64,000 nt of DNA from Pseudovibrio sp. Ad37 (GTDB lineage: Bacteria; Pseudomonadota; Alphaproteobacteria; Rhizobiales; Stappiaceae), in contig NZ_LMCF01000219.1 in assembly GCF_001623075.1 (NCBI RefSeq), forward strand, positions 19,613 to 83,612. Reading direction: 5' to 3'. The notes under the pieces are model-generated. The model did no database searches. It was not told where the DNA came from and saw only the letters and a list, made by a program, of their open reading frames with translations. The position numbers and the translations under genes were made by a program. This document shows, piece by piece, positions 47,951 to 62,732 of the stretch (its first letter is position 1; every line of letters starts with the position of its first letter).

Positions 47951-48607
47951 TCAGATCCCGAAGAGTGGCTGCAAAAGCTTGGGAAAGAAGCCTTTGAAGT
48001 CGAGTGGAGCGTCGGTCACAGCAAGGCAGATGCAGTCTTCTTCTGTATCTGCAATTGGCTGATGATGCACATGCTCGTCTGCTTCCTGGACATCGCCGAT
48101 CTTATAGCGTCCGGTCTCATCACTGAACGACCCTTGCAGCACCAGTGTCATTTCTGATCCGTGGTGCGAATGCTCAGGCGTGACAAACCCCGGAGACAGT
48201 TTCAACAAACGTGCACTTTCACCTTCGCTCGACTTAATCGGCAAAATGAACTGTCGGATCCCCGGACCAACCATCTTCCATTTGATGCCGCTGTATCCAT
48301 GCCCCAGCACATCCCACAGCGCCGATGGCACGCCTTTCTCAGGCTTGGGTTCAGCCAGATAGGCACCCATCGAAAGTGTTGGTTCATTTTCAACTCGGGC
48401 CATCAGAAGATCGAACATGTCGTCAGAAGGTTTTTGTTGCTCGCCCGTTTGAAGCATAGCACCTGCAAGAGCTTCCGCTTCAGCTACGCGGGCCTTACAC
48501 CCTTGGCAAAGCTCCAGATGACAGGAGACAAGCAACGCATGCCCTGCCGGCAAAGAGCCAGTCGCATAGGCCCATACAATTTCATCGCTGAGGTGATGGT
48601 TGATCAT
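47951..48607 (-). CDS. chrR: ChrR-type zinc anti-sigma factor with cupin domain
   Basis: ChrR holds RpoE inactive and releases it on singlet-oxygen stress. The 218-residue protein has the zinc-binding anti-sigma domain (early His pair, then HLELCQGC with one His and two Cys) and a C-terminal cupin domain (GFVTPEHSHHGSEMTLVLQG; H-rich EHVHHQPI). It overlaps the sigma gene by 4 bases (ATGA), the usual coupled arrangement. Confidence 0.93.
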   Translation of the reverse strand: MINHHLSDEIVWAYATGSLPAGHALLVSCHLELCQGCKARVAEAEALAGAMLQTGEQQKPSDDMFDLLMARVENEPTLSMGAYLAEPKPEKGVPSALWDVLGHGYSGIKWKMVGPGIRQFILPIKSSEGESARLLKLSPGFVTPEHSHHGSEMTLVLQGSFSDETGRYKIGDVQEADEHVHHQPIADTEEDCICLAVTDAPLDFKGFFPKLLQPLFGI

Positions 48608-49206
48608 AGGTCCACCCCTTCCAAAAGTTTCCGTAAACGCGCCAGAGCCAGCCTCATCCGAGATTTGACAGTTCCCAGCGGCAATTCCAAGTACTGAGCA
48701 ATTTTTGAGTGGCTGGCGTCTTCATAAAACGCCAATTTGATAATGGCCGATTGCTCCGCCGGCAAAAGGGGAAGAGCTTTCTTCACCCGTTCGCTGAGCT
48801 GTGATTGGTGATGGTCATCAATCTGGGTCTCTTCTCCAACCAACTCATTGGCAAAAAACTGATCATCTTTGTAAAGATACCGCCGCTCTTTACGAAAACG
48901 ATCAATCCGAAGGTTACGGGCAATCGTGTAAATCCAGGTCGATGCGGAAGCCTTACGACTGTCAAACATCTCTGCCTTTCGCCAAACGATGACAAAAGTT
49001 TCCTGAACCAGCTCCTCCGAAAGCTCCGAGGTTGCTCCACCTTTCAGAAAGTAAGTCTTAAGACGCGGAGCGAAAAACTCGAAGAGCTGTCGGAAGATCT
49101 CCCGCGAACGCTCTTGACCGAGAGATAAAAGCAAAGCGCTTAAATCTGCGGAGGTCAGGCTGTTCTCGCTCTCACCATCATTGTTTTGAAGCTGCATCGT
49201 AATCAT
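48604..49206 (-). CDS. rpoE: ECF sigma factor RpoE (ChrR-controlled, ECF11-like)
   Basis: This sigma-70 family ECF factor of about 200 residues has region 2 (ELVQETFVIVWRKAEMFDSRKASASTWIYTIARN) and region 4 (LPAEQSAIIKLAFYEDASHSKIAQYLELPLGTVKSRMRLAL). In Rhodobacter the RpoE-ChrR pair drives the singlet-oxygen response. The open frame begins at 49224; ATG 49206 is chosen and 49197 is possible. Its own promoter upstream matches the expected RpoE consensus, implying autoregulation. Confidence 0.92.
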   Translation of the reverse strand: MITMQLQNNDGESENSLTSADLSALLLSLGQERSREIFRQLFEFFAPRLKTYFLKGGATSELSEELVQETFVIVWRKAEMFDSRKASASTWIYTIARNLRIDRFRKERRYLYKDDQFFANELVGEETQIDDHHQSQLSERVKKALPLLPAEQSAIIKLAFYEDASHSKIAQYLELPLGTVKSRMRLALARLRKLLEGVDL

Positions 49207-49240
49207 CGCTCTGCAAACCGCCAAATTGTCTCACATAGTC

Positions 49241-49343: not shown

Positions 49344-50684
49344 ATGAAAATCGCAGTCATTGGGAGTGGAATTGCCGGCCTTTCCGCAGCTTGGCTTCTC
49401 TCGAAAAGCCACAATGTAGATGTCTATGAAAAGGACGATCGCCTTGGCGGGCATGCCAACACACAGAATGTGAAAATTGCCGGCGAAGACGTCGCCGTCG
49501 ATACCGGCTTCATCGTCTACAACGAGAAAACCTATCCCAATCTGACTGCACTTTTCAATCATTTGGATGTTCAGACAGACCCAACCGAAATGTCCTTCGC
49601 AGTTTCTTTGGAACAAGGATCACGAGAGTATTCTGGCTCAGGTTTGAAAGGCCTGTTCGCCCAGAAATCTAACCTCTTCCGCCCCAGCTTCCTGCGCATG
49701 ATTTCGCAGACGCTCCGCTTTTACAAAGAAGCACCTCAAGACGCTGGTGATCCAAAACTCCAGTCAACATCACTGGGCAGCTATCTCAGCCAAAACAACT
49801 ATTCAGCCACTTTCATCAATGAGCATCTGCTTCCCATGGGAGCAGCCATCTGGTCCATGCCCCCACAGCAGCTTCTGCAGTTTCCATTCCGCGCGTTCAT
49901 CGGCTTTTGCAACAATCATGGACTCTTACAAGTGCGTGACAGACCACAATGGCGCACCGTTTCAGGCGGGTCGCGCAACTACGTTCAAAAATTCGGCTCA
50001 GAGATTTCCGGCAAAGTCATTTTGAATGCCGGTATTTCAGATATCCAGCGCAAACCCGGATCAATCAAGGTTTACTCGAGAAACGGTCACGCAACCTCCT
50101 ACGATCATGTCGTGTTTGCCTGTCACTCTGATCAAGCACTTGCACTGCTCAATGCGGAAGGCAATGCCTCTCGCGCTGAACGTCAGATCCTCGGATCAAT
50201 CCGGTATCAGCGAAACATCGCCATTCTGCATCGCGACATTTCTCTCATGCCGAAACTCAAAACAACCTGGTCCGCATGGAACTTCATTGGCAATCAGATG
50301 GGAAACAATGCTCTGTGCGTGACGTATTGGATGAATGCCCTTCAAAGACTGAACACCTCTGAGGATGTGTTTGTCACCCTCAACCCAAGCCATCAGCCTG
50401 CTGAAGGTTCCGTACTGCGAACCTTCCAATATTCCCACCCGGTTTTTGATCAAACTGCATTATCCGCTCAAAGGCAGCTTTGGCAAATTCAGGGAGAAAG
50501 GCGGACTTGGTTCTGCGGGGCTTACTTGGGTTATGGCTTCCATGAGGACGGATTGCAGTCTGGTTTGGCCGTGGCCGAAGCACTTGGTGACGTCCAGCGA
50601 CCATGGACATGCGATAATCCCAACGGACGCATTGGCCTGCCTGAAGACTGGCCCTACGGAAGTTATCAGGAGGCTGCGGAATGA
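49344..50684 (+). CDS. FAD-dependent amine-oxidase-like oxidoreductase (COG2907 type)
   Basis: This 446-residue flavoprotein has the N-terminal dinucleotide motif IAVIGSGIAGLSAAW (residues 3-17), the flavin-binding VYEKDDRLGGHANT region and a C-terminal FAD segment WFCGAYLGYGFHEDGLQSG. It resembles predicted NAD/FAD proteins that accompany DUF1365 and Cfa enzymes in RpoE regulons. A role in fatty-acid modification, such as the oxidase or desaturase step towards furan or methylated lipids, is inference. Coupled to the next gene by ATGA. Confidence 0.86.
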   Translation: MKIAVIGSGIAGLSAAWLLSKSHNVDVYEKDDRLGGHANTQNVKIAGEDVAVDTGFIVYNEKTYPNLTALFNHLDVQTDPTEMSFAVSLEQGSREYSGSGLKGLFAQKSNLFRPSFLRMISQTLRFYKEAPQDAGDPKLQSTSLGSYLSQNNYSATFINEHLLPMGAAIWSMPPQQLLQFPFRAFIGFCNNHGLLQVRDRPQWRTVSGGSRNYVQKFGSEISGKVILNAGISDIQRKPGSIKVYSRNGHATSYDHVVFACHSDQALALLNAEGNASRAERQILGSIRYQRNIAILHRDISLMPKLKTTWSAWNFIGNQMGNNALCVTYWMNALQRLNTSEDVFVTLNPSHQPAEGSVLRTFQYSHPVFDQTALSAQRQLWQIQGERRTWFCGAYLGYGFHEDGLQSGLAVAEALGDVQRPWTCDNPNGRIGLPEDWPYGSYQEAAE

Positions 50685-51541
50685 TCCTGACAGGACGACA
50701 GCAGGAAGCCTCAAATGCACCGCTCAGGATCTACCTGGGCGATGTGGTGCACTGCCGTCATGATCAGATCAAACACAAGCTCAGCTATAAAGCCGTTTCC
50801 TTTTCAATCGACATCGACCGATTGCAAGACGTGAACCAGATATCGCACTTGCTGTCCGTCGACCGGTTCAACCTATTCAGCTTCCATCCATCAGACCACA
50901 TGGAAGAAGGTCATTCATCCCTACGCGATTATGTAGAGGCTGTGTTGAAACAAGCGCACATAACCGCCATTCCCGAACAAATGCGACTCCTCGCCTACCC
51001 TAGATTTTTAGGAAGAGCCTTCAATCCAATCAGTGTGTTCTACTGCTATTCGAAGAGCAGATTGGAAGCCATTCTTTATCAGGTTCGAAACACCTTTGGT
51101 GACATGCACCATTACGCCGTTGAAATAGCGCCATCTGAACATCAAGGCATTGAACAGGCCTACCGCCACTCATGCCCAAAAAACTTCCATGTGTCACCGT
51201 TTCTGGAAGTCTCCGGCCACTATCATTTTGTTGCGCGTCCTCCAACAGATCATGTGTCACTCATCATACGACTGACACAGAACAGCGCGCCTGTATTAAC
51301 CGCTAGTTTTCAGGGAAAGCAAAAGGCAGCAACAACCACGCGCCTTCTGAAGATTGGCCTGCAATACTTCCAAAATTCGGCAAAAATCCTCGGCCTCATT
51401 CATTTTGAAGCTCTAAAGCTCTGGATCAAAGGTGCCCGCTTTTACAAGCGACCATCACCGCCTGCATCCATCGTAACGGGTATGCACAAGCAAGCTCCGG
51501 CACTCAAAAAGACAAAAATTCACTCAGGGAGACAACCATGA
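50681..51541 (+). CDS. DUF1365 protein
   Basis: This 286-residue member of DUF1365 has the motifs IYLGDVVHCRHDQIKHKLSY and YPRFLGRAFNPISVFYCY. The biochemical role is unknown. It overlaps both neighbours by 4 bases (ATGA), so the three genes form a translationally coupled operon under the RpoE-type promoter at 49288. Confidence 0.88.
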   Translation: MILTGRQQEASNAPLRIYLGDVVHCRHDQIKHKLSYKAVSFSIDIDRLQDVNQISHLLSVDRFNLFSFHPSDHMEEGHSSLRDYVEAVLKQAHITAIPEQMRLLAYPRFLGRAFNPISVFYCYSKSRLEAILYQVRNTFGDMHHYAVEIAPSEHQGIEQAYRHSCPKNFHVSPFLEVSGHYHFVARPPTDHVSLIIRLTQNSAPVLTASFQGKQKAATTTRLLKIGLQYFQNSAKILGLIHFEALKLWIKGARFYKRPSPPASIVTGMHKQAPALKKTKIHSGRQP

Positions 51542-52782
51542 CACTCAGAGATCACTCCTCCCTCAGTCCACTAACCCACGCAAAAACGACGGAGCTTAAC
51601 CTCTCCTCAAAACTCTGGAAGACATTGCTGGACCGTGTGCTCCACCGTCTCTCAGAAGGTCATTTGTGGATCATCCTTCCCAATGATCAAATGCTTTCCT
51701 ATGGCAACCCGTCCGGGAAAGGTCCGGTCGTAACCGTAAAGATTTTAAACACTCGCCTTTTATGGAGGCTTCTTTCCGGTAACTCACTCGCACTGGCCGA
51801 AGGATATCTGGAAGAAGATTGGCAATGCAGTGACCTGAGGTCCCTGTTCGATTTGCTGGTGGCCAACAAACAGATCATGCAGTCCGTCACAAAACGCGGC
51901 ATCCTCTCACGCGCTTTCGCCCGCTTGCGCCATTTGGCAAATGCAAATACATTGAACGGCAGCAAGCGCAACATCGCGTTCCACTACGATCTTGGAAATG
52001 ACTTTTACAGCCACTGGCTCGATGAGACGATGACCTACTCATCTGCTTACAAGCTAAAACAGCACGAAACACTCGAAGACGCCCAGCGTAGAAAGTACGA
52101 TCGTGTCTTGCAGATGACCGATACACAACCAGACCAACAAATTCTGGAGATTGGCTGCGGTTGGGGTGGCTTTGCTGAACATGCCTGCACTGCCGGACGT
52201 GATGTGCACGGCATCACACTCTCACAGGAGCAGCTCAGATTTGCCCAATCCCGCCTTCAATCCCAAGAAACTGACGGAAGTGCATCCTTCGAACTGCGCG
52301 ACTATCGCGAAACGCAAGGCCAGTACGACGCCATAGTCTCAATCGAGATGATCGAAGCGGTGGGTGAAGAGAACTGGGCCGGTTATTTTGAAAAGCTCAA
52401 GTCTCGCCTGAAACCGGGGGGCACTGCTGTCATTCAGGCAATTCTCATCTCTGACGAAAAGTTCCATAGTTACCGCAAGAACGTTGATTTCATTCAGCGC
52501 TACATCTTCCCGGGAGGTTTGCTCCCCTCAGCTAAGGAACTTGCAAGGCAGATTGAGCAACAAAAACTGCAACTCGTGACACGTGAGTTCTTCGGTGCAG
52601 ACTACGAGCAGACACTCATACGTTGGAGAAAGTCGTTCTTCCAGAGCTGGCCAGAAATCGCCAAGCTGGGCTACGACAACCGCTTCAAGCGGATGTGGCA
52701 TTACTATCTGGCATATTGTGAGGCTGGCTTTGCTGAGGGAACCATCAATGTTGGCCTGTTTCAGATCAAAAAACCAATTTGA
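51538..52782 (+). CDS. Cyclopropane-fatty-acid synthase-like methyltransferase
   Basis: This 414-residue SAM-dependent enzyme acts on unsaturated acyl chains of phospholipids. It has the Cfa segments NIAFHYDLGNDFYSHWLDETMTYSSAY and QQILEIGCGWGGFAEHAC, and the IFPGGLLPS and IEMIEAVGEENW motifs. In this operon type the product may be a cyclopropane or a methylated (furan-precursor) lipid; sequence alone cannot decide. Confidence 0.92.
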   Translation: MTLRDHSSLSPLTHAKTTELNLSSKLWKTLLDRVLHRLSEGHLWIILPNDQMLSYGNPSGKGPVVTVKILNTRLLWRLLSGNSLALAEGYLEEDWQCSDLRSLFDLLVANKQIMQSVTKRGILSRAFARLRHLANANTLNGSKRNIAFHYDLGNDFYSHWLDETMTYSSAYKLKQHETLEDAQRRKYDRVLQMTDTQPDQQILEIGCGWGGFAEHACTAGRDVHGITLSQEQLRFAQSRLQSQETDGSASFELRDYRETQGQYDAIVSIEMIEAVGEENWAGYFEKLKSRLKPGGTAVIQAILISDEKFHSYRKNVDFIQRYIFPGGLLPSAKELARQIEQQKLQLVTREFFGADYEQTLIRWRKSFFQSWPEIAKLGYDNRFKRMWHYYLAYCEAGFAEGTINVGLFQIKKPI

Positions 52783-52792
52783 CGAAGTTGAA

Positions 52793-52813
52793 GTTGGGCC
52801 AGACAGGCCCAAC
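52793..52813. terminator. Hairpin between convergent cfa-like and SnoaL genes
   Basis: GTTGGGCC (52793-52800) and GGCCCAAC (52806-52813) pair perfectly around a 5-base loop. U-tracts are weak, but the position between two convergent stops fits a shared terminator. Confidence 0.65.
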
Positions 52814-52820
52814 CAATCCT

Positions 52821-53258
52821 TTAGATCGCAGCACGCGAAGCAATCCATCTGATCATCGCACCAACAACCGGCAGCTTGCGATAGAAATGGCGGGAAGCAT
52901 CCCAATAATCATAGTGCGCACAAACTTTGGCATCCTTGTCAAAGTGCACCTCTGTCACCCCCCGCACGCTCCAGTTGCCAAGCAGTTTTTGCTTGCAGGT
53001 AAAATCCCAACGCATGAAACACAGATCACCAGACCAAGCCAGATCAAGAATCTTGAACCGTGGCTCCTGAACATCCTCATACATCTTGTGAAAGACCTTT
53101 TCGAAGTTGGTACGCCCTTTCACATCATTAAACGGATCAATGAAGTGCACATCATCACTGATGAGTTCTTGAACGTCTTCAATACGGTCCGGCGTAACTT
53201 CTTCAAAGAAAAGCGCATACTGCCTTGCAGCAGCCTCCAGATCAGCTCTCTCAGTCAT
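52821..53258 (-). CDS. SnoaL/NTF2-like protein
   Basis: This 145-residue protein has a SnoaL-type fold (DVQELISDDVHFIDPFNDVKGRTNFEKVFHKMYEDV, VTEVHFDKDAKVCAHYDYWDAS). It is common next to the RpoE-linked SDR and photolyase genes; the reaction is unknown. Its ATG overlaps the SDR stop by 4 bases. Confidence 0.85.
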   Translation of the reverse strand: MTERADLEAAARQYALFFEEVTPDRIEDVQELISDDVHFIDPFNDVKGRTNFEKVFHKMYEDVQEPRFKILDLAWSGDLCFMRWDFTCKQKLLGNWSVRGVTEVHFDKDAKVCAHYDYWDASRHFYRKLPVVGAMIRWIASRAAI

Positions 53259-54007
53259 CGTTTACTCATCCTTCTCGTAACCGGAAAGTAGAGAGCGTAT
53301 GGCAACAAGCGCAGGATCTTCATGATAGCGGCAAGGCGGAATGGAAAGTAAATCTCAAACTTGCGCTTCTCAAGTCCCCTATAGATATCATTGGCAGCCT
53401 GCTCTGGTCCCAGAAGAAACGGCATCTCAAAGGTGTTCTTGTCAGTCATGGGGGTCTTTACGAAGCCCGGATTCACAAGTGACAGGTCAATCCCAGCCTT
53501 GTCAAAGTCAGGCTTCAGACTCTCACACAGGTTGATCAGCGCCGCTTTGGTTGGCCCATAACAGGCAGCATTGGGAAGACCGCAATACCCGCTTAATGAA
53601 CTAACAATCGCGATATGCCCTGCACCTTGCTGTTTCAGCAACGGAAAGAGCCCCGCAATCACACGTACAGCACCAAAGTAATTCGTATCCATGGAAGCCA
53701 CAGAATGCTCTTCACTCAACACATCTATGCCGCCGGGAAAGTACACGCCTGAGCAATACACCGTGAGGTCAGGCAGTTTGTCAGTCTGCTGAAAACGCTC
53801 CAATGCCTCAGAGACTTGCACTGCATCGGTCACATCAAGCGGCATCACGTCAACATTGCTGGCATCCTCAGCAACAGCCTGAAGCTTCTGCTCATTTCGC
53901 GCACTGACAACAACCTGCCATCCAGAACGCGCATACAACTGGGCAAGGCTTGCTCCAATGCCGGAACTCGCTCCAATAATCCAAACAAGCTTCTCATGTT
54001 CTGCCAT
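53255..54007 (-). CDS. Short-chain dehydrogenase/reductase
   Basis: This 250-residue classical SDR has the nucleotide motif GASSGIGAS at residues 12-20, the catalytic serine in IVSSLSGYCG and the YGPTK catalytic motif near residue 153. A C-terminal hydrophobic stretch (AAIMKILRLLPYALYFPV) suggests membrane association. The substrate is unknown. It lies between the photolyase and SnoaL genes on the same strand. Confidence 0.9.
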   Translation of the reverse strand: MAEHEKLVWIIGASSGIGASLAQLYARSGWQVVVSARNEQKLQAVAEDASNVDVMPLDVTDAVQVSEALERFQQTDKLPDLTVYCSGVYFPGGIDVLSEEHSVASMDTNYFGAVRVIAGLFPLLKQQGAGHIAIVSSLSGYCGLPNAACYGPTKAALINLCESLKPDFDKAGIDLSLVNPGFVKTPMTDKNTFEMPFLLGPEQAANDIYRGLEKRKFEIYFPFRLAAIMKILRLLPYALYFPVTRRMSKR

Positions 54008-54051
54008 AACGCCCTCTCTGTTTGCTCTTACGCAGCGAGGTAACTTTCAGA

Positions 54052-55584
54052 TCACGCTTGCGTCTCATCCAACAGCCCAAGAAAACGGCGGCTATCACTT
54101 CTGATCTCGCTCTTCTTGCTGTCACTCATCTTGTCCCAGCTGCGGTAGATCATCGAGACTCTGGGATTGCCTCGGAGCTTCTCTTCATTCTGATCCAGAA
54201 AATTCCAATAAAGGTAGTTGAAGGGACAGGCTTTCTCACCCGTCTTCGTTGCGTGAGAATAAGAGCAATGCTCACAGTAGTTCGACATTCTGTTGATGTA
54301 AGCACCACTGGCTGCATATGGTTTTGAAGCGAACAGCCCACCATCCGCAAACAGGATCATTCCATTCACATTGGGCAACTCCACCCACTCATAAGCATCC
54401 GCGTAAACTGCGAGATACCACTCACTCACTTGTTTGGGAGCAAGCCCGGCAAGCAACGAGAAATTCCCGATCACCATGAGCCGCTGAATGTGATGCGCGT
54501 AAGCATTCGCTTTTGTCTCCACAATACACTGGTGAAGACAATTCATCTGCGTCTCTCCAGTCCAGTAAAACTCAGGCAAGTTTCGAGAGGCCTCAAAATA
54601 ATTTAGTCCTGCGTAGTCAGGCATGGAAAGCCAATAGATCCCACGAATGAACTCTCGCCACCCCACAATCTGGCGGATGAACCCCTCAACAGAGTTCAAC
54701 GGTGCAGTCCCGTCAAAATACGCCCGCTCCGCCGCACGAACACATTCGAGAGGAAGCAATAATCCACAATTGAGGTAGAAGCTGATGTGACTATGAAACA
54801 TCCAGGGTTCGCCCTGAACCATAGCATCCTGATAATCACCAAACCTGCCGAGACGCTCAGCAACAAACTGATCCAGCGCCTTAAGCGCATCCTCACGGGT
54901 CACAGCAAGAGAAAACGGCTGCAAGTCACCAAAGTGCTCAGGAAACTGCTCCGCAACAAGTGCCAGAACGTCCTCTGTGATCCCGTCTGGCTCTACAGAA
55001 AAAGGAGCTGGAACATCCAACTCCTTTGGTGCGCTCTTGCGGTTGTCATGATCATAATTCCACTGTCCGCCCAGAGGTTTGTCACCCTCCATCAAGATGG
55101 CATGATCACGTCGCATCTCTCGATAAAAGTACTCCAGCCGTAAGCTCTTGCGCCCGGACGCCCACTTTTGAAAACCTTCAGCAGAGCAGAGAAAGCGGTC
55201 ATCATCACGCAGCTCAACCGGCAAACCTAGTCGCTCCTGCCAGCTCTCCATGTCATGCAATAAGCGATATTCACCGGGCTTCGTTACAATGAGTTCGGTA
55301 ACAGTTCCAGCCTCCCTCAATCGAAGGACTTCCCCAAACAAACAACCGGTATTCTCAGCGCTATCGTAGTTCACGTAAACAACGCGATGTCCCAGAGACC
55401 TCAACGCCTCAGCAAAGTGGCGCATCACCGAAAACAGAAACGCAATCTTCTTTTTGTGATGGCGAACATAAGTCGCTTCCTCGCGCACCTCCGCCATCAC
55501 AATGACATCTTCACCCGGCTTTGCATCGCGCAGGCTGGAAAGAGACAAACTTAACTGATCCCCAAGTACCAGGCGCAAACGCAT
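54052..55584 (-). CDS. Iron-sulfur bacterial cryptochrome/(6-4) photolyase
   Basis: This 510-residue protein of the FeS-BCP family (CryB of Rhodobacter, PhrB of Agrobacterium) uses blue light and FAD to repair (6-4) photoproducts or to signal. The conserved cluster cysteines are present: one in QMNCLHQCIV, and YCEHC plus KACPF in the C-terminal part. The FAD region GWREFIRGIYWL and MNCLHQ...HHIQRLM is intact. The frame starts at 55602, but the ATG at 55584 has GGGGAG 9 bases upstream. It fits the photo-oxidative module. Confidence 0.92.
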   Translation of the reverse strand: MRLRLVLGDQLSLSLSSLRDAKPGEDVIVMAEVREEATYVRHHKKKIAFLFSVMRHFAEALRSLGHRVVYVNYDSAENTGCLFGEVLRLREAGTVTELIVTKPGEYRLLHDMESWQERLGLPVELRDDDRFLCSAEGFQKWASGRKSLRLEYFYREMRRDHAILMEGDKPLGGQWNYDHDNRKSAPKELDVPAPFSVEPDGITEDVLALVAEQFPEHFGDLQPFSLAVTREDALKALDQFVAERLGRFGDYQDAMVQGEPWMFHSHISFYLNCGLLLPLECVRAAERAYFDGTAPLNSVEGFIRQIVGWREFIRGIYWLSMPDYAGLNYFEASRNLPEFYWTGETQMNCLHQCIVETKANAYAHHIQRLMVIGNFSLLAGLAPKQVSEWYLAVYADAYEWVELPNVNGMILFADGGLFASKPYAASGAYINRMSNYCEHCSYSHATKTGEKACPFNYLYWNFLDQNEEKLRGNPRVSMIYRSWDKMSDSKKSEIRSDSRRFLGLLDETQA

Positions 55585-56951
55585 CTGCAGTTCTCCCCTC
55601 ATGGCAGCCCATCAAACTCCCCAAAAGGTAGAGCGCAAGCAACAACGAAGCCATACCCAACAATTAGGTCAAACCTCCACCTGAGGCACCTCGTCTTCTA
55701 ACATCCTATAGAGTTGCAGTTATGCCCTCACTATCCCCCATCAAAATCCTTGATCCGCCAGCAACTCCGTCTCCTCTCACAAACTCAGTCAAGCATTCAG
55801 GACAAGAGCATCCATCTCACTCAACACGAAGCATTGGTGCCATAGCTCCACCATGTCCATACTGCAGCAAATACGTCGCTCCATGTGACCATGCAGCAAG
55901 ACGCGTGAATGGATGAAAGAGAGCGTGTTTTTCGCATTTCAACGCAGCTTTTACAAAAGCGCTCACCGTTTCTGACCGATGAACGCAAACGGTCTCAAAC
56001 ACATATCTCATCGACATCGCAAAGTTGGTAGGAGAAGCTCAAATCATCACAACAATGACGCTCAAGTCCGTTCTTTGTTGCTCTCAAAACGACCATTTTT
56101 TTAGCTAATCCAGACAAGTGATTTGCTGTCTAACACCTCAAAATCAGCGCAATTCGGCAGTTTTCCACGTTTTGTGCAAAAAAATCGATGCTTATGATGA
56201 TAAAAGTTCATCAGGCGTATAAGTGCCATTTTTTTAGGCAAAACACTTTAGGAAGACGAGTTAAACCCGAAAATTGCAACTGCAAATCGCGATAGCAATA
56301 CTCAACGGGAGCATTCCCGGAGCTCGCCCAAAAGTAACGCATAAACTATTGTATTTATTGAATTTTATATGGAGTTAGGATTTCTCACAAAGTCCATATA
56401 ACGATCTTATGGTTTAAGATCACATGATAAAATACGCTGTCTCAATCAGATAAAATCACCCGCCTAACCTACAAAACAAGCAACAAGAACACTTTGGCTA
56501 GTTTTCGCAATGTATGAATTGCTAATATTTTAAATATTATACTTTGATTTAAGTAACAATTTGAGAGATCTAAAACTGATGATTATTTTTGCTTGTATAG
56601 GCGTGATCCATTTCCACTTATAACTGAATTGTTTACTACAAGCTTTAGCTTAGTTTCATATTACCTATTGGGAATCCACACTCCAACTCTTAAGTAATCA
56701 TATCTATAAGCTTTAAGAGTCCAGCAGTTAATATTCATGGTTAACAATAAAGCTAAAATTTTAGTCACAATGACGCCGGGTAACTACTTCAGTCACACAG
56801 TGCAAAAACTTTTTTACTCGACATACATATTGGTATTAATATATTATTTACCATGTTTGATTGCACATAATACAGTCGAAAGCAAAAAATAGACTGATCT
56901 GGGGTGTGCCAAAACCACTGTAACGCATAGGCAAATTTTGTAGGGGCTGTG
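55585..56951. other. Long non-coding AT-rich region with several inverted repeats
   Basis: This is 1.37 kb without a credible gene; frames at 55722-55916 and 55817-56017 have no family likeness and oppose each other. Three perfect inverted repeats are present: TTATATGGA/TCCATATAA (56365-56401), GATCTTA/TAAGATC (56403-56421) and ACTCTTAA/TTAAGAGT (56686-56720). GTGATCCATTTCCA at 56603-56616 is identical to the -35 region of the RpoE-type promoter at 49287-49300, but no TAAAAA follows at N18. The promoter of the rpfF homologue must lie near the right end. Confidence 0.55.
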
Positions 56952-57932
56952 ATGTCTGATCTAACGGGGCATAGATCCAACTTTCCTTCCTTAATTGGAA
57001 CAACAAAGCCATCCTTAAAGTCTGGCACGCATCCAGTTGTGGATGTCGCCGCTGTTTCAATTGCACAGCAATTTGCGTCTGTTCAGTTGAATTGGGTTGA
57101 TCTGGAATTCGACGAAACAACAAAAGCTCTCTGGCTTTATATGAAAAGCGAAGGGCGTCCTTGCTTTACACCTGAGTTGCTGAGTGAACTCGCACAGTCA
57201 CAGGCCGTGATGAAGCGTCTTTTTGAGACTTATCAGCCAGCAGATCCGTGCCCGATCAACTTCAAGGTCGTCGCCTCTCGTATTCCAGGCGTTTACAATC
57301 TCGGCGGTGATCTTAACCTGTTCATCCAACTTATCCGCGAAAAAGACCGTGAGAAGCTTCACCAGTATGCCGTTGATTGCATTGACGTTGTTTACCGCAA
57401 CGCCATCTCTTCAAACCTGCCAATCGTCACGATCGGCATGATCCAGGGTGATGCATTAGGTGGTGGATTCGAAACTGCCATCTCTTGCGATGTGATCATC
57501 GCAGAACGCCAAGCCAAATTCGGCCTGCCGGAGGTTCTGTTCAACTTGTTCCCTGGCATGGGAGCTTACAGCTTCCTGTCACGCATGGTCGATGGCCGTG
57601 TTGCAGAAAAAATGCTTATGAGTGGACGCCTCTACTCAGCTGAAGAACTTCATGAAATGGGAATTGTTCATGAAGTTGTTGAAGAAGGTGAAGCACCGTT
57701 TGCGGTTCAGCAGTACATCACCAAGAACGCACGCAAACACACCGCTCACTCTGCCATTTACCGCGCAGGCCGTACCGTTCAGCCCGTTGCTTATGAAGAA
57801 CTGATTGACGTCGTCGAGATTTGGGTCGACGCCGCTCTGTCTTTGTCCGACCAGGACTTGAAAAAAATGGAGCGCCTGACAAAAGCTCAGGATCGTCTCG
57901 GTGCTCCATCTGTACGTAAACAAGCTTTCTAG
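56952..57932 (+). CDS. rpfF: RpfF-like crotonase, probable DSF-family signal synthase
   Basis: This 326-residue crotonase closely follows RpfF of Xanthomonas. Landmark segments are YNLGGDLNLFIQLIREKDRE, QGDALGGGFETAISCDVIIAE and GLPEVLFNLFPGMGAYSF. The two catalytic glutamates of RpfF (E141 and E161) correspond to E174 and E194 here, with identical spacing. RpfF has both thioesterase and dehydratase action and makes cis-2-unsaturated fatty acid signals. About 40 extra N-terminal residues precede the domain. The ATG at 56952 (AGGGG 5 bases upstream) is chosen over the GTG at 56949. It converges on the RpfC-like kinase with a 13-base gap. Confidence 0.88.
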   Translation: MSDLTGHRSNFPSLIGTTKPSLKSGTHPVVDVAAVSIAQQFASVQLNWVDLEFDETTKALWLYMKSEGRPCFTPELLSELAQSQAVMKRLFETYQPADPCPINFKVVASRIPGVYNLGGDLNLFIQLIREKDREKLHQYAVDCIDVVYRNAISSNLPIVTIGMIQGDALGGGFETAISCDVIIAERQAKFGLPEVLFNLFPGMGAYSFLSRMVDGRVAEKMLMSGRLYSAEELHEMGIVHEVVEEGEAPFAVQQYITKNARKHTAHSAIYRAGRTVQPVAYEELIDVVEIWVDAALSLSDQDLKKMERLTKAQDRLGAPSVRKQAF

Positions 57933-57945
57933 AGTTGTACTGGCT

Positions 57946-60549
57946 CTAAGAAAATTCCAGTGTGCTCAAGCGGTTGATAGGATTACTTCCTTCCTGCTTG
58001 AGCTGCTGTAGATACCTGGTCAGGTTTTCATGATCACGCTTTACCTTGCCTGACAGCTTACGAAGCATGTCTTCACCCAGGATCGGCATTTGCGGCGCAG
58101 GCAAGTTCTCCATGTCATCACTCAGTTTCGCAACTTCCGTCGCCCCAAGGTTGACTGAAGCAGAACGAAGCGCATGCGCACTTGCCCGAAATAGCTCTGC
58201 ATCCCGAGCATCAAATGCAGCTTTAATATCGCGATGCAGCTGTGTGGTGTCTTTCAGATAATCTTCAATCACAGCAATAACGAAATCCAGACCACCAAGT
58301 GTTCTCAGTTGCGACAGGCTTGCATAATCGATCCCAGAGGAAACTTCAGAGGAAAACCGAGGATGCTCGGAAATTGACGTTACCTGACTATTAGCAATTT
58401 TCTTGCGTGTGATATTTTCGTAAACACCACTTTCTGCAATCACATCATCAGCCAATGTCAGAAGCTTTTGCGGCTCGATAGGTTTGGTCGCACATGCATC
58501 AGCCCCAGCTTCCTGCGCATTTCGCGCAGCCGCGCGACTTGCATCTGCTGTGAGCGCTATGATCGGAAGGCGATCCTGTCCAAGTTCCGTAATACGATGC
58601 AACTTGATAGTTTCAATACCGTTCAGCACCGGCATATTAATATCCATGATCGCCAGATCGTAAGAGTTATCTTCCAACTCATCTAAGGCCAGTTCGCCAT
58701 TGCTGACGAGCTTGCAGGTATGACCGCCCTTTTGCAGAATTTTTTCAATAACACGCTGGTTGGTCTTGTTGTCTTCAGCAACAAGAATGTTCAGCCCAAT
58801 ATAGCGACTGAAATAAGCCTGCAGTTCTTCCTTAAGCTCCATGCCAGATTTCGCATCTTCCGCACCTGCGGCCCTTAGAGCCCAGGCAACCGCTTGCGTG
58901 GAAACCGGAACTTTGATCGAAGAAACAATACTTGGCTGGAAAACGTCCTCGCACTCTTTTTCCGATGCAGCTGAGTAAACTGGAATCAGATTGACGTTGT
59001 GATGGTGACCAGTCGATTTGAGCGCATAGTGCAGGCTATCCGACGTCGCTGCCAGAACATCTTCCCCAACGAAGAGAACAATCTTGCTGCCATCACTGGA
59101 TGTTTGCTGACGCAAAGCACTGAAGGCACTGCCAACTGTCTCAAAACACTCATGCTCGATGCCACAATCCCGCAAAGAAGCAGCGCAAACATCCCGCAGA
59201 TCCTTGCGTTTGGAGACAATAGCAACAGCCCCATCTTCCACTTCAAGCCGAATTGTCTCATCACTAACAGCACGGCCAACCTTCAGCTCAATGATAAAGG
59301 TGCTGCCCTGCCCCGGCTGGCTGGTGACAAACACCTCACCGCCCATCGCACGGACAACTTCGCGCACAATGGAAAGACCAAGACCTGTCCCGCCAAATCG
59401 ATCCACGATGCTGTCATCAGCCTGCGTGAAACGGTCAAAAATGCGCGACTGAGCATCTTCAGAAATGCCAATACCGGTATCTTTAACTTCCAGCTGCAAT
59501 CGAATTTCGCCACCATCTGCTTCCTTGCAAACTGCGCGAATGGAAACGGAGCCTTCTTCGGTAAACTTGACAGCATTGCCGGCAATATTCAGCAAAACTT
59601 CGCGGATATGACGTGCATCGCCCACGAGGAGCGGAGGTAAGTTGCTGTCCACGTAGCGCGAAATAATCAACCCTTTACCGCGCGCTTGGCCTTGCACAAT
59701 CTGTGTCACCTCACGCAGGATCGAGTTCATATCAAAGACCGTCCGACTGACGATCATTCGACCACTTTCAATCCGGCTAAAATCAAGAATGCCGTTGATC
59801 ATGGAAAGGAGCGAGCTACCGGAATACTTGATGGTCTTCGCCATATCCCGCTGCTCAGCATCCAACTGCGTATCCTGGATCAGATCACCCATGCCAATGA
59901 TCGCATTCAATGGTGTCCGCAACTCATGGCTGACAGCGGTGAGGAACTGGGTCTTCGCTCTATTAGCGGTTTCAGCAGCATGCTGTGCTGCGGTCATCGA
60001 TCTGATGAGCTTGCTTGCATAGAGCGGCACAACAACAAGACACCCAAGCAAACCCAGACCGAGAATGAATTCACCTTGCCAGTATGGGGTCGTCAACACC
60101 ACAGCGAACCCACTCACAGAGGCAATTGTCGCCAACGCCAGATAATCCAACCCAAACCGGAAACCGTTTCCGAAAATCACCCAAAGATAGATAGGGAACA
60201 GGATTGAAAGGTATTCCCCTCCCACATACAGGCCGGCAGAGACCGCCCCTACATCTAGAAAAATCGCGAGAACGCGACGAAGCGAACTGATGTTCTGCGA
60301 GTAAAGCAAATGAGCGAGCAGTGCCAGGGAGCCAAGCCCAAACGTGGTCATGATGACATTTGTCTGGAAATTCTCATGGGAACCAAAAGTGATATTGGAA
60401 GCGAGGTAAGGCGTGATCAGCAAGGTGAACATAAAACGGTTCAGAGACATCTCGCCTTCACCGCCACCCAACTGAATAATACGCTTATATAGATCCTTTA
60501 ATCCGCTCAACGGGAGCAGCTGCAGCTTCGTTTTTCTGTTGTCGTTCAT
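57946..60549 (-). CDS. rpfC: RpfC-like hybrid sensor histidine kinase
   Basis: The 867-residue protein has RpfC architecture. A short cytoplasmic N-terminus and about five membrane helices (residues 38-183) include YLWVIFGNGFRFGLDYL and a TTPYWQ segment that match RpfC. The HisKA domain with H208 (SHELRTPLNAIIG) follows, then HATPase (DTGIGIS, GGTGLGLS), a degenerate receiver (about 435-560) lacking the acidic pocket, a full receiver (586-705) with D636, and an Hpt domain with H792 (HALRSASVNLG). RpfC senses DSF. Its start overlaps the upstream regulator's stop (ATGA). Confidence 0.87.
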   Translation of the reverse strand: MNDNRKTKLQLLPLSGLKDLYKRIIQLGGGEGEMSLNRFMFTLLITPYLASNITFGSHENFQTNVIMTTFGLGSLALLAHLLYSQNISSLRRVLAIFLDVGAVSAGLYVGGEYLSILFPIYLWVIFGNGFRFGLDYLALATIASVSGFAVVLTTPYWQGEFILGLGLLGCLVVVPLYASKLIRSMTAAQHAAETANRAKTQFLTAVSHELRTPLNAIIGMGDLIQDTQLDAEQRDMAKTIKYSGSSLLSMINGILDFSRIESGRMIVSRTVFDMNSILREVTQIVQGQARGKGLIISRYVDSNLPPLLVGDARHIREVLLNIAGNAVKFTEEGSVSIRAVCKEADGGEIRLQLEVKDTGIGISEDAQSRIFDRFTQADDSIVDRFGGTGLGLSIVREVVRAMGGEVFVTSQPGQGSTFIIELKVGRAVSDETIRLEVEDGAVAIVSKRKDLRDVCAASLRDCGIEHECFETVGSAFSALRQQTSSDGSKIVLFVGEDVLAATSDSLHYALKSTGHHHNVNLIPVYSAASEKECEDVFQPSIVSSIKVPVSTQAVAWALRAAGAEDAKSGMELKEELQAYFSRYIGLNILVAEDNKTNQRVIEKILQKGGHTCKLVSNGELALDELEDNSYDLAIMDINMPVLNGIETIKLHRITELGQDRLPIIALTADASRAAARNAQEAGADACATKPIEPQKLLTLADDVIAESGVYENITRKKIANSQVTSISEHPRFSSEVSSGIDYASLSQLRTLGGLDFVIAVIEDYLKDTTQLHRDIKAAFDARDAELFRASAHALRSASVNLGATEVAKLSDDMENLPAPQMPILGEDMLRKLSGKVKRDHENLTRYLQQLKQEGSNPINRLSTLEFS

Positions 60550-62732
60550 AGTTCAAACTCCGCCCCAGCCAACGCTCTTTGCTGCCCGTTTCCTTGCAAG
60601 TTCGCCGCTTGCTCTTCCAGGAGACGTAAAAAATCCTCAGCAGGTACAGGCTTGCCAAACAGATAACCCTGCGCCATTTCACAGCCGGCATCTGTGAGAT
60701 ATTCAGCCTGTTCCCGGGTCTCGACACCTTCTGCAATGATGGAGAGATCGAGGCTCTTACCCAAACCAACAATAGCCTTAATGATGACCGTGTTGTTCGG
60801 ATCCGTCATCATATCGCGCGTGAAGCACCGATCAATTTTCAGGCAATCAACGGAGTATCTGCTCAGATATGCGAGGGAGGAATAACCCGTCCCAAAGTCA
60901 TCAATCGAAATCGCAATTCCCATCTCGCGGATTTCGCGCAAGTCGCGGACGGTTGCTTCTGAGCCATGCAAAACGATGTTCTCTGTGATCTCAATCTCAA
61001 GTTTATCAGGCGGCAAACTGCAGGAAACCAAAGCATCTTTCAAAAGCTGTGGCACGTTCTGCTTACGGAATTGTGTTGGTGAAATGTTCACGGCAATCCG
61101 AGGCGTTGCCACCCCTAAGTCGAGCCACTTCTTTGCCTGCTGACAAGCAGCAAAAATCACCCACTCGCCGATTGGCAGAATAAGCCCAACCTCTTCAGCT
61201 GTTCCCAAAAAGACGTTGGGAGCAACCACACCATAATCTGGTCGGTTCCATCTCAGTAGAGCTTCAGCGCCAACAATCTCTTGGGTCCGCAAATCAATCT
61301 GAGGCTGATAAAACAGTTCCAGCTGGTTATGTTCAATAGCGTTTCGCAGCTCAGCTTCCAACGCGACTGTTTCTTTGACATGGTGATCCATCTTCGTCGA
61401 AAACAGATGGAACGTATTTCCGCCATCAGCCTTGGATTGGTACATGGCCATATCAGCACAGCGCAGCAACTCTTCGCTGTTAAGGCCATCCTCCGGGTAT
61501 TTGGTAATCCCAACGCTGGCACTCGTCTGAAGTTCCCGCCCACTGATATGGAACGGCTCTTCAACCACGCTCACCAAATGTTGGGCAAAACTCAAAGCCT
61601 CTTCTGAGCTCTTCAAATCCGTTTGAAGAATAGCAAACTCATCACCACCCAATCGCGCAACCAGGTCTGAACCATCTACACAGCGCAATAAACGCTCTGC
61701 GAGCACCTCCAGGAGGCGATCACCAGTACGATGACCCAAGGCATCATTGATAGATTTAAAGCGATCCAGATCGATGAAATGCAGCGCAAAGCTACGACCG
61801 CTGTTTCGGCACTGGAAAATCTCTTCATCAATGCGCTCACCAAGCATGGTTCTGTTTGGCAAACCCGTCAACGCATCATGGTGCGCAATATGAAGCAAAT
61901 GCGCTTCTGCACGTTTGCGATCAGAGATATTGGTCGCGGTCGTCACAACATGCGTTGTGTTCCCATCAACGTCCAGCAGAGGGCTTTTTGTAACGATGAA
62001 GTGAAAAATATCACCAGCATGGTTTCGCTGTTCAATTTCATAGGGCGGCAAGGCTCTGCCCGTAATGAAAACCTTACGGTCCAAACGACGATTTCTCTCA
62101 CGGGTAAACTTATCAAACTTGCCGTAGGTATCTTCACCAACAAGATCTGCCGTGGTCGAGTCCAAAAAGCGCGCCCAAGCCGCATTCGAGAACGCACATA
62201 GCCCATCTCGTGTGCTGGTCGTGATCATAGCCGGAACACTATCGATCACCTGCGCCAGCTGTTCACGAGAATCTCGGAGAGCTTCCTTGCTCTGCTGCTC
62301 TACGTTGACCAGTTCCTGTTCAAGAAAGCGAGCATGACGTTTAACCGCATTTTGCTCTTCTCGCAGAGCAAGTAGGTTTCTGGCTCGACTAACGAACTCA
62401 TTGTGGTCAACCGGACTTTGCAGGAAATCAGTTGCGCCCGCCTCCAGCGCACGAATTCTAAATGAGCGATCCGTAAAGACGGTGATGACAACAATCGGCA
62501 CATCGCTGCAATGCTCAAGCGCACGCACCTTTTGCGTTAGATCTGCACCATCCATTTCCGGCATGCTGTAGTCGGTAATAATCAAGTCGGGGACGCTGCT
62601 CTCCATATATTCGAGAGCATCAACCGGCGAAGCAAAACAGTGTACTTTGACAGATGCATCTACAGCGAGAGCAAGCTTTTCAAAAATGCTTCTATTAATT
62701 GCCCTGTCATCGACAATAACGATTGTTGTCAT
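60546..62732 (-). CDS. Response regulator with PAS, GGDEF and EAL domains
   Basis: The 728-residue protein has a receiver (1-128) like that of RpfG, including VDDRAINRSI, D54 in TDYSMPEMDG and a RNLLALR linker. A coiled coil (130-160), a PAS domain (about 160-270), a GGDEF domain (motif 362-366) and an EAL domain (EAL at 490-492; DDFGTGYSSLAYL) follow. Both output motifs are intact, so it could make or degrade cyclic-di-GMP. No RxxD inhibition site precedes GGDEF (DGSD instead). The conserved receiver lysine is replaced by serine (S106 in FLQSPV). It is cotranscribed with the RpfC-like kinase. Confidence 0.92.
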   Translation of the reverse strand: MTTIVIVDDRAINRSIFEKLALAVDASVKVHCFASPVDALEYMESSVPDLIITDYSMPEMDGADLTQKVRALEHCSDVPIVVITVFTDRSFRIRALEAGATDFLQSPVDHNEFVSRARNLLALREEQNAVKRHARFLEQELVNVEQQSKEALRDSREQLAQVIDSVPAMITTSTRDGLCAFSNAAWARFLDSTTADLVGEDTYGKFDKFTRERNRRLDRKVFITGRALPPYEIEQRNHAGDIFHFIVTKSPLLDVDGNTTHVVTTATNISDRKRAEAHLLHIAHHDALTGLPNRTMLGERIDEEIFQCRNSGRSFALHFIDLDRFKSINDALGHRTGDRLLEVLAERLLRCVDGSDLVARLGGDEFAILQTDLKSSEEALSFAQHLVSVVEEPFHISGRELQTSASVGITKYPEDGLNSEELLRCADMAMYQSKADGGNTFHLFSTKMDHHVKETVALEAELRNAIEHNQLELFYQPQIDLRTQEIVGAEALLRWNRPDYGVVAPNVFLGTAEEVGLILPIGEWVIFAACQQAKKWLDLGVATPRIAVNISPTQFRKQNVPQLLKDALVSCSLPPDKLEIEITENIVLHGSEATVRDLREIREMGIAISIDDFGTGYSSLAYLSRYSVDCLKIDRCFTRDMMTDPNNTVIIKAIVGLGKSLDLSIIAEGVETREQAEYLTDAGCEMAQGYLFGKPVPAEDFLRLLEEQAANLQGNGQQRALAGAEFEL

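Follow-up and report, generated by a model that had tools for sequence, protein, structure and literature searches.

A three-gene locus in a 64,000-nucleotide (64-kb) stretch of the Pseudovibrio sp. Ad37 genome (5.88 Mb), hereafter the window, probably encodes one quorum-sensing circuit of the diffusible signal factor (DSF) type, in which an EAL phosphodiesterase would likely take the place of the HD-GYP enzyme of RpfG. The locus consists of an rpfF-type synthase gene, a gene for an RpfC-type hybrid histidine kinase and a gene for a REC-PAS-GGDEF-EAL response regulator. The gene content and order, the catalytic and phosphorelay residues, the co-occurrence of synthase and sensor, and the kinship of the regulator's receiver with that of RpfG are evident from sequence. 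The genes and the domains of their products are as follows.

56952..57932, plus strand: rpfF-type gene for a DSF-family signal synthase (326 aa; catalytic E174 at 57471-57473 and E194 at 57531-57533)
57946..60549, minus strand: gene for the RpfC-type hybrid histidine kinase (867 aa), converging on rpfF
59989..60549, minus strand: membrane sensor of the kinase (residues 1-187; six long helices predicted; E31 corresponds to Glu19 of Xanthomonas RpfC)
59278..59958, minus strand: HisKA and HATPase_c domains of the kinase (residues 198-424; phospho-acceptor His208)
58453..58788, minus strand: receiver domain of the kinase (residues 588-699; Asp636)
58000..58272, minus strand: Hpt domain of the kinase (residues 760-850; His792)
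60546..62732, minus strand: gene for the REC-PAS-GGDEF-EAL response regulator (728 aa)
62382..62723, minus strand: receiver domain of the regulator (residues 4-117; Asp54; RpfG lineage)
61911..62243, minus strand: PAS domain of the regulator (residues 164-274), common to the REC-PAS-kinase regulators of other rpf loci
61416..61886, minus strand: GGDEF domain (residues 283-439; GGDEF motif intact at 362-366)
60648..61355, minus strand: EAL domain (residues 460-695; E490, N549, E581, D611, D612, K632, E668 and Q688 intact)

The three genes are adjacent, as originally predicted. The rpfF gene was counted from the ATG at 56952 (the open reading frame listing has a GTG start three bases earlier); it is convergent with the kinase gene, and their stop codons are 13 nt apart. 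The regulator and kinase genes share 4 nt (60546-60549), and the regulator gene is probably the first gene of an operon with the kinase gene. Pfam assigned ECH_1 to the synthase, HisKA-HATPase-REC-Hpt to the kinase and REC-PAS-GGDEF-EAL to the regulator. The gene order (rpfF> <kinase <regulator) was the same as that in the HD-GYP loci examined, and it matches the order described for the Xanthomonas rpf locus (PMC4504480). The best named rpfF relatives among the best 80 matches listed were from Pseudovibrio (P. denitrificans, 94%; P. axinellae, 87%), and dN/dS within this genus was 0.005-0.076 in 12 of 15 gene comparisons, those with unsaturated dS.

The synthase was compared with RpfF proteins and with ordinary enoyl-CoA hydratases, and both the tree and the scores grouped it with RpfF, in agreement with the original prediction. 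The top four matches in the PDB were 3m6m (named RpfF, 194 bits), 7zq7 (193 bits), 6dgn (named RpfF) and 5fus, down to 175 bits, of which 7zq7 and 5fus carry the names crotonase/enoyl-CoA hydratase; the fifth match was an ordinary enoyl-CoA hydratase at 64.5 bits. The protein passed NCBIfam model PRK08788 (375 bits, cut-off 177), and the best ordinary hydratase model gave 80 bits. The tree placed it among the RpfFs and away from hydratases of its own genome, just two of which formed the outgroup. Both catalytic glutamates of Xanthomonas RpfF, E141 and E161 (PMC9040811), are kept, as E174 and E194. Among 158 rpfF loci (147 after removal of repeats), the first residue was Glu at 157 and Asp at one, and the second was Glu at 151 and Asp at seven, all seven having a kinase without a recognised regulator. 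Both residues were Glu at 68 of 68 loci of the window's type (60 once repeat fetches were removed). RpfF identity was 34-39% in the Burkholderia matches of the plasmid collection.

The second product had been called an RpfC-like kinase with the segments GNGFRFG and TTPYWQ kept in its sensor; both sit in sensor blocks that could be aligned with their counterparts from rpf loci of the HD-GYP type. A hidden Markov model (HMM) built from six xanthomonad-type RpfC sensors (HD-GYP loci of families f205 and f226) matched the window's sensor with 98.7 bits (E 2e-28), and one built from all ten HD-GYP loci gave 136.7 bits. Shuffled controls (n = 200) reached at most 5.8 bits, so the match exceeds chance. 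The reference sensors are taken as RpfC-type because, at reference locus L162, the kinase matched the solved RpfC receiver with 230 bits and the RpfF matched 7zq7 with 591 and 3m6m with 488 bits. The kinase's own receiver is the counterpart of the RpfF-binding RpfC receiver in 3m6m (3m6m_D, E 3e-20). Nine positions were invariant in 56 sensors (R91, D99, W123, G127, G129, R131, G133, Y177 and L181). Several database matches of kinases like the window's, including the P. denitrificans orthologue, are already titled RpfC.

The receiver of the regulator had been likened to that of RpfG, and this likeness held: it scored 76-118 bits against all ten HD-GYP (RpfG-type) regulators and 111-147 bits against 19 PAS-kinase regulators, compared with at most 50.6 bits for own-genome loci (31 matched, which hold other receivers and EAL proteins) and at most 35 bits for RpfC receivers. 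In the tree, a branch with bootstrap 91 and SH-aLRT 89 separated the 43 regulator receivers from the rest, and another (94/97) set apart those with PAS outputs. When the PAS profiles of the two PAS-bearing regulator types, GGDEF-EAL and PAS-kinase, were aligned, the hhalign score was 352 (E 2.5e-59). On the receiver scores and this PAS match, a single lineage of receivers next to the same rpfF/rpfC pair is joined to any of three outputs (HD-GYP, PAS-kinase or PAS-GGDEF-EAL). The PAS-GGDEF-EAL output was as predicted, and the GGDEF-EAL regulators formed one group in the output tree (support 72). There was no match to HD-GYP (PF13487) in the genome, which holds 12 EAL domains.

Conservation of the three genes together was then considered across genomes. 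Of 61 relatives, 20 had rpfF, and 19 of these also had the sensor, which occurred in no other relative; the sole rpfF genome without the sensor was G049, in which rpfF adjoins a membrane GGDEF-EAL protein. Neither rpfF nor the sensor was present in four Pseudovibrio genomes. In a class sample of 289 genomes, rpfF was found in 19, the sensor in 18 and both in 17, the exceptions being rpfF alone in G343 and G205 and the sensor alone in G105. The association was strong by Fisher's test, in which relatedness is ignored (p 7e-15 and 3e-24), and rpfF and sensor were at most 4 kb apart in 13 of the 16 other genomes that had both. Synthase and sensor were thus co-conserved (19 of 20 and 17 of 19 rpfF genomes), and no outcome originally named as refuting (a crotonase grouping with plain hydratases, a sensor unrelated to RpfC, rare joint occurrence in relatives) was seen.

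Partners were sought within 8.5 kb of rpfF using HMMs grown from the window's own domains, by which remote partners can be missed. The window's locus type was found at 60 of the 147 distinct rpfF loci, a set biased to the window's relatives. The best 80 loci, from at least 587 relatives and favouring near ones, comprised 49 with kinase and REC-PAS-GGDEF-EAL regulator, eight with kinase and REC-PAS-kinase, five with kinase only, two with kinase and a REC-PAS regulator only, one each with regulator only, GGDEF-EAL without kinase and HD-GYP, and 13 with none. The set from the genus, family and order (19 loci) held 16 full loci, one with regulator only, one with genes in broken frames (L144) and one with GGDEF-EAL without kinase; L017 and L145, where the kinase lies farther off, were also kept outside the full set. 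The phylum sample (40 of 60 loci) held 14 with GGDEF-EAL without kinase, including RpfR-type loci, 13 with kinase only, nine with HD-GYP, two with GGDEF-EAL and kinase, and two with none. Named carriers of the window's type included Stappia, Roseomonas, Plastoroseomonas, Gluconacetobacter, Acetobacter, Acidocella, Rhizobium, Aureimonas, Microvirga, Methylopila, Inquilinus and Pinisolibacter. This locus type is therefore no one-off, and it occurs in several families of Hyphomicrobiales and Acetobacterales-type bacteria.

In the proposed circuit, RpfF would make a cis-2-unsaturated fatty acid. At low cell density the kinase receiver would restrain RpfF; at high density the fatty acid would bind the membrane sensor, and phosphate would pass from His208 to Asp636, His792 and Asp54. 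The EAL domain would then reduce c-di-GMP, raising motility and dispersal and lowering attachment. The PAS domain of the regulator could supply a second input, and the GGDEF domain may either act as a weakly active cyclase or regulate the EAL domain by sensing GTP.

Several results weigh against this circuit. The window's RpfF reached 241 bits with the narrow NCBIfam RpfF equivalog NF053515, for which the cut-off is 550. The support for the receiver clade is moderate (91/89, just unstarred). Adjacent regulators in the class sample (19 regions, 18 genomes) were mostly PAS-kinases (11 regions), compared with one GGDEF-EAL, one kinase only, one GGDEF-EAL without kinase and five with none. At 20 of the 158 loci rpfF had no recognised partner nearby, short or edge contigs (for example L026, L058, L073, L121 and L125) being counted as without partners. 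In three of the 16 genomes with both genes (G293, G207 and G277), rpfF and sensor were on different contigs; two of these genomes are drafts, and G293 is in 8 contigs. Finally, Xanthomonas RpfC needs R15, D17, S18, E19 and Q22 for DSF (PMC5391125), and the window's sensor has L27, G29, G30, E31 and M34, which keeps one of the five (Glu19). Because four of these residues are replaced, the sensor may have a ligand other than DSF, or one outside the DSF family altogether.

The points on residues and on the RpfF equivalog also speak for a lipid-sensing pair without quorum sensing, in which the crotonase would make or trim some other acyl compound and the kinase would sense a membrane lipid or a different fatty acid. 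Among distinct kinases, position 22 of the sensor was Gln at all 10 HD-GYP loci, at 17 of the 18 with a PAS-kinase and at 14 of the 15 with a kinase only, whereas 58 of the 60 GGDEF-EAL loci had Met, Ile or Leu there; position 25 was Asn at 57 of 60 GGDEF-EAL loci versus two of 43 of the other three kinds. Two extra loci, with a REC-PAS regulator without recognised output, likewise had Met and Asn at these positions. Shared ancestry may explain this pattern as well as a change of ligand does. The predicted fold of the sensor resembles the membrane domains of ImcA and adenylyl cyclase 8, and adenylyl cyclase membrane domains are reported as lipid receptors (10.7554/eLife.101483), which would also fit lipid sensing. 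However, the two retained RpfF glutamates, the placement of RpfF in the tree and the tight co-occurrence of rpfF with the sensor make a pair of this kind quite unlikely. We also consider it rather unlikely that the circuit runs with the opposite sign, phosphorylation driving the GGDEF domain so that the signal would raise c-di-GMP and favour attachment to an animal host. The GGDEF motif is intact in the window and in nearly all of the 71 regulators compared (61 distinct), and the Arg of the inhibitory site is absent in the window, where DGSD replaces RxxD, so that a cyclase would be unrestrained. However, the catalytic residues compared in the EAL domain (E, N, E, D, D, K, D, E, Q) were invariant in 71 of 71 regulators, whereas GGDEF positions varied in a few (G362 was kept in 67 of 71, E365 in 69 of 71), and c-di-GMP is lowered by both known DSF outputs, RpfG and RpfR (PMC4504480; PMC13220807).

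The locus had also been said to look like a hybrid between the Xanthomonas plan and that of Burkholderia. This stands for the domain make-up, as the string PAS-GGDEF-EAL is that of RpfR, but not for descent. A true hybrid, an RpfC-type kinase joined with an RpfR that was given a receiver, is improbable, even though 20 regulators and 10 RpfR-type proteins formed one set of 30 in the output tree (SH-aLRT 91, unstarred), with own-genome GGDEF-EAL proteins apart. By score, the window's GGDEF-EAL part was no nearer to RpfR than to others: own-genome L217 gave 394 bits, membrane GGDEF-EAL proteins of Hyphomicrobiales reached 401 at most, and the best four did not include any of the ten RpfR-type loci. 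The PAS domain of the window's type matched that of RpfR with an hhalign score of 55 and 13% identity, a distant PAS kinship only. The reference RpfR of L165 matched the solved RpfF-interaction domain (6dga) with 79.8 bits and the solved PAS with 138 bits; neither RpfR structure was among the best 60 matches of the window's regulator (down to 65.5 bits), and profile comparison of its PAS-linker part gave no RpfF-binding domain. Descent from RpfR is unsupported because of these results and because the receiver is of the RpfG lineage, with a REC-PAS half common to the PAS-kinase regulators. The window's locus is better read as an rpfFCG-type locus with an exchanged effector domain.

According to reviews, DSF signals are read either through RpfC/RpfG or through RpfR (PMC4504480; PMC13220807). 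The window shares with the Xanthomonas-type RpfF/RpfC/RpfG system the synthase, a six-helix-type sensor kinase with REC and Hpt domains, the receiver lineage, the convergent order and a likely breakdown of c-di-GMP; it differs in its PAS-GGDEF-EAL output in place of HD-GYP, in the replacement of R15, D17, S18 and Q22, and in that no rpfB was found beside the locus. With RpfF/RpfR of Burkholderia and Enterobacteriaceae it shares the output string beside a convergent rpfF, but RpfR is a one-piece protein, whereas the window's regulator has a receiver (4-117) and an adjacent kinase gene, and would depend on that kinase. By description, Pseudomonas PA1396, a sensor kinase with RpfC-like input, and DspI are also comparable in input domain and DSF-family signal (PMC4504480), but an adjacent synthase-kinase-regulator locus is not described for Pseudomonas in the part of that review available to us. 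We found no description of a Pseudovibrio RpfF or of an alphaproteobacterial RpfF/RpfC/GGDEF-EAL locus in full-text searches of open-licence literature.

Other types of rpf locus were also met. At some loci the regulator next to rpfF and the RpfC-type kinase is a REC-PAS-histidine kinase, an additional kind of output that was met most often in the class sample (L019, L042, L062, L068, L079, L081, L109, L111, L112, L116-L119, L123 and others). These loci share rpfF, the RpfC-type kinase, the REC-PAS half and the gene order with the window, but their output is a second histidine kinase, and their sensors retain the Xanthomonas-like RPDSEHEQ. The neighbour L115 at the class sample's kinase-only region is REC-PAS-HisKA by Pfam. 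At L080, L128 and L147 (Hyphomicrobiales), rpfF adjoins a GGDEF-EAL protein that is hydrophobic in its N-terminal part and has PAS_7; receiver and RpfC are lacking, and the protein is possibly a one-piece membrane receptor. L023, L039 and L046, from Inquilinus and a record titled Mycobacterium sp. KBS0706 (apparently a mislabelled alphaproteobacterium), have one or two extra RpfC-sensor kinases without receiver or Hpt between the RpfC gene and the regulator, which recall rpfH. In family f197 (L154, L155 and L171-L178; small genomes), rpfF and an RpfC-type kinase occur, and an adjacent regulator is absent family-wide. L024 and L057 have a second crotonase gene after rpfF, and no kinase nearby.

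Upstream (5') of rpfF in the window, about 1.35 kb (55603-56951) holds no recognised gene and gave no Rfam match. It is preceded by a run of genes (49344-55602) that we take, by eye, to be FAD-dependent oxidoreductase-, cyclopropane-fatty-acid-synthase-, short-chain dehydrogenase/reductase- and photolyase/cryptochrome-like; with a presumed sigma/anti-sigma-like pair nearby (47951-49224), it would resemble a photo-oxidative stress locus.

Judged by its sequence, the window's locus type is a new form of DSF signalling, both conserved and widespread. It would be a third way of reading DSF signals beside RpfC/RpfG and RpfR, present in bacteria associated with sponges and corals, in acetic acid bacteria and rhizobia, and in relatives of Roseomonas and Microvirga, groups for which no description of fatty-acid quorum sensing was found in our searches of open-licence literature. 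We tentatively suggest, at somewhat less than even chances, a broader view in which DSF signalling has third and fourth layouts absent from current reviews, one receiver being refitted with HD-GYP, PAS-kinase or PAS-GGDEF-EAL; the sensor of the GGDEF-EAL lineage would have changed alongside (Gln22 to Met/Ile/Leu, residue 25 to Asn) towards an acyl dialect of its own, and the RpfC sensor would be a six-helix receptor of the ImcA/adenylyl cyclase 8 fold with both ends cytoplasmic, its signal-binding N-terminus facing inward and not the periplasm. The predicted fold would tie a known bacterial fatty-acid receptor to the membrane domains of adenylyl cyclases. The replaced sensor residues make signal specificity testable, and the loci are natural chimeras in which the coupling of the kinase to c-di-GMP can be tested; the conserved joint of the system would be the receiver, not the effector.

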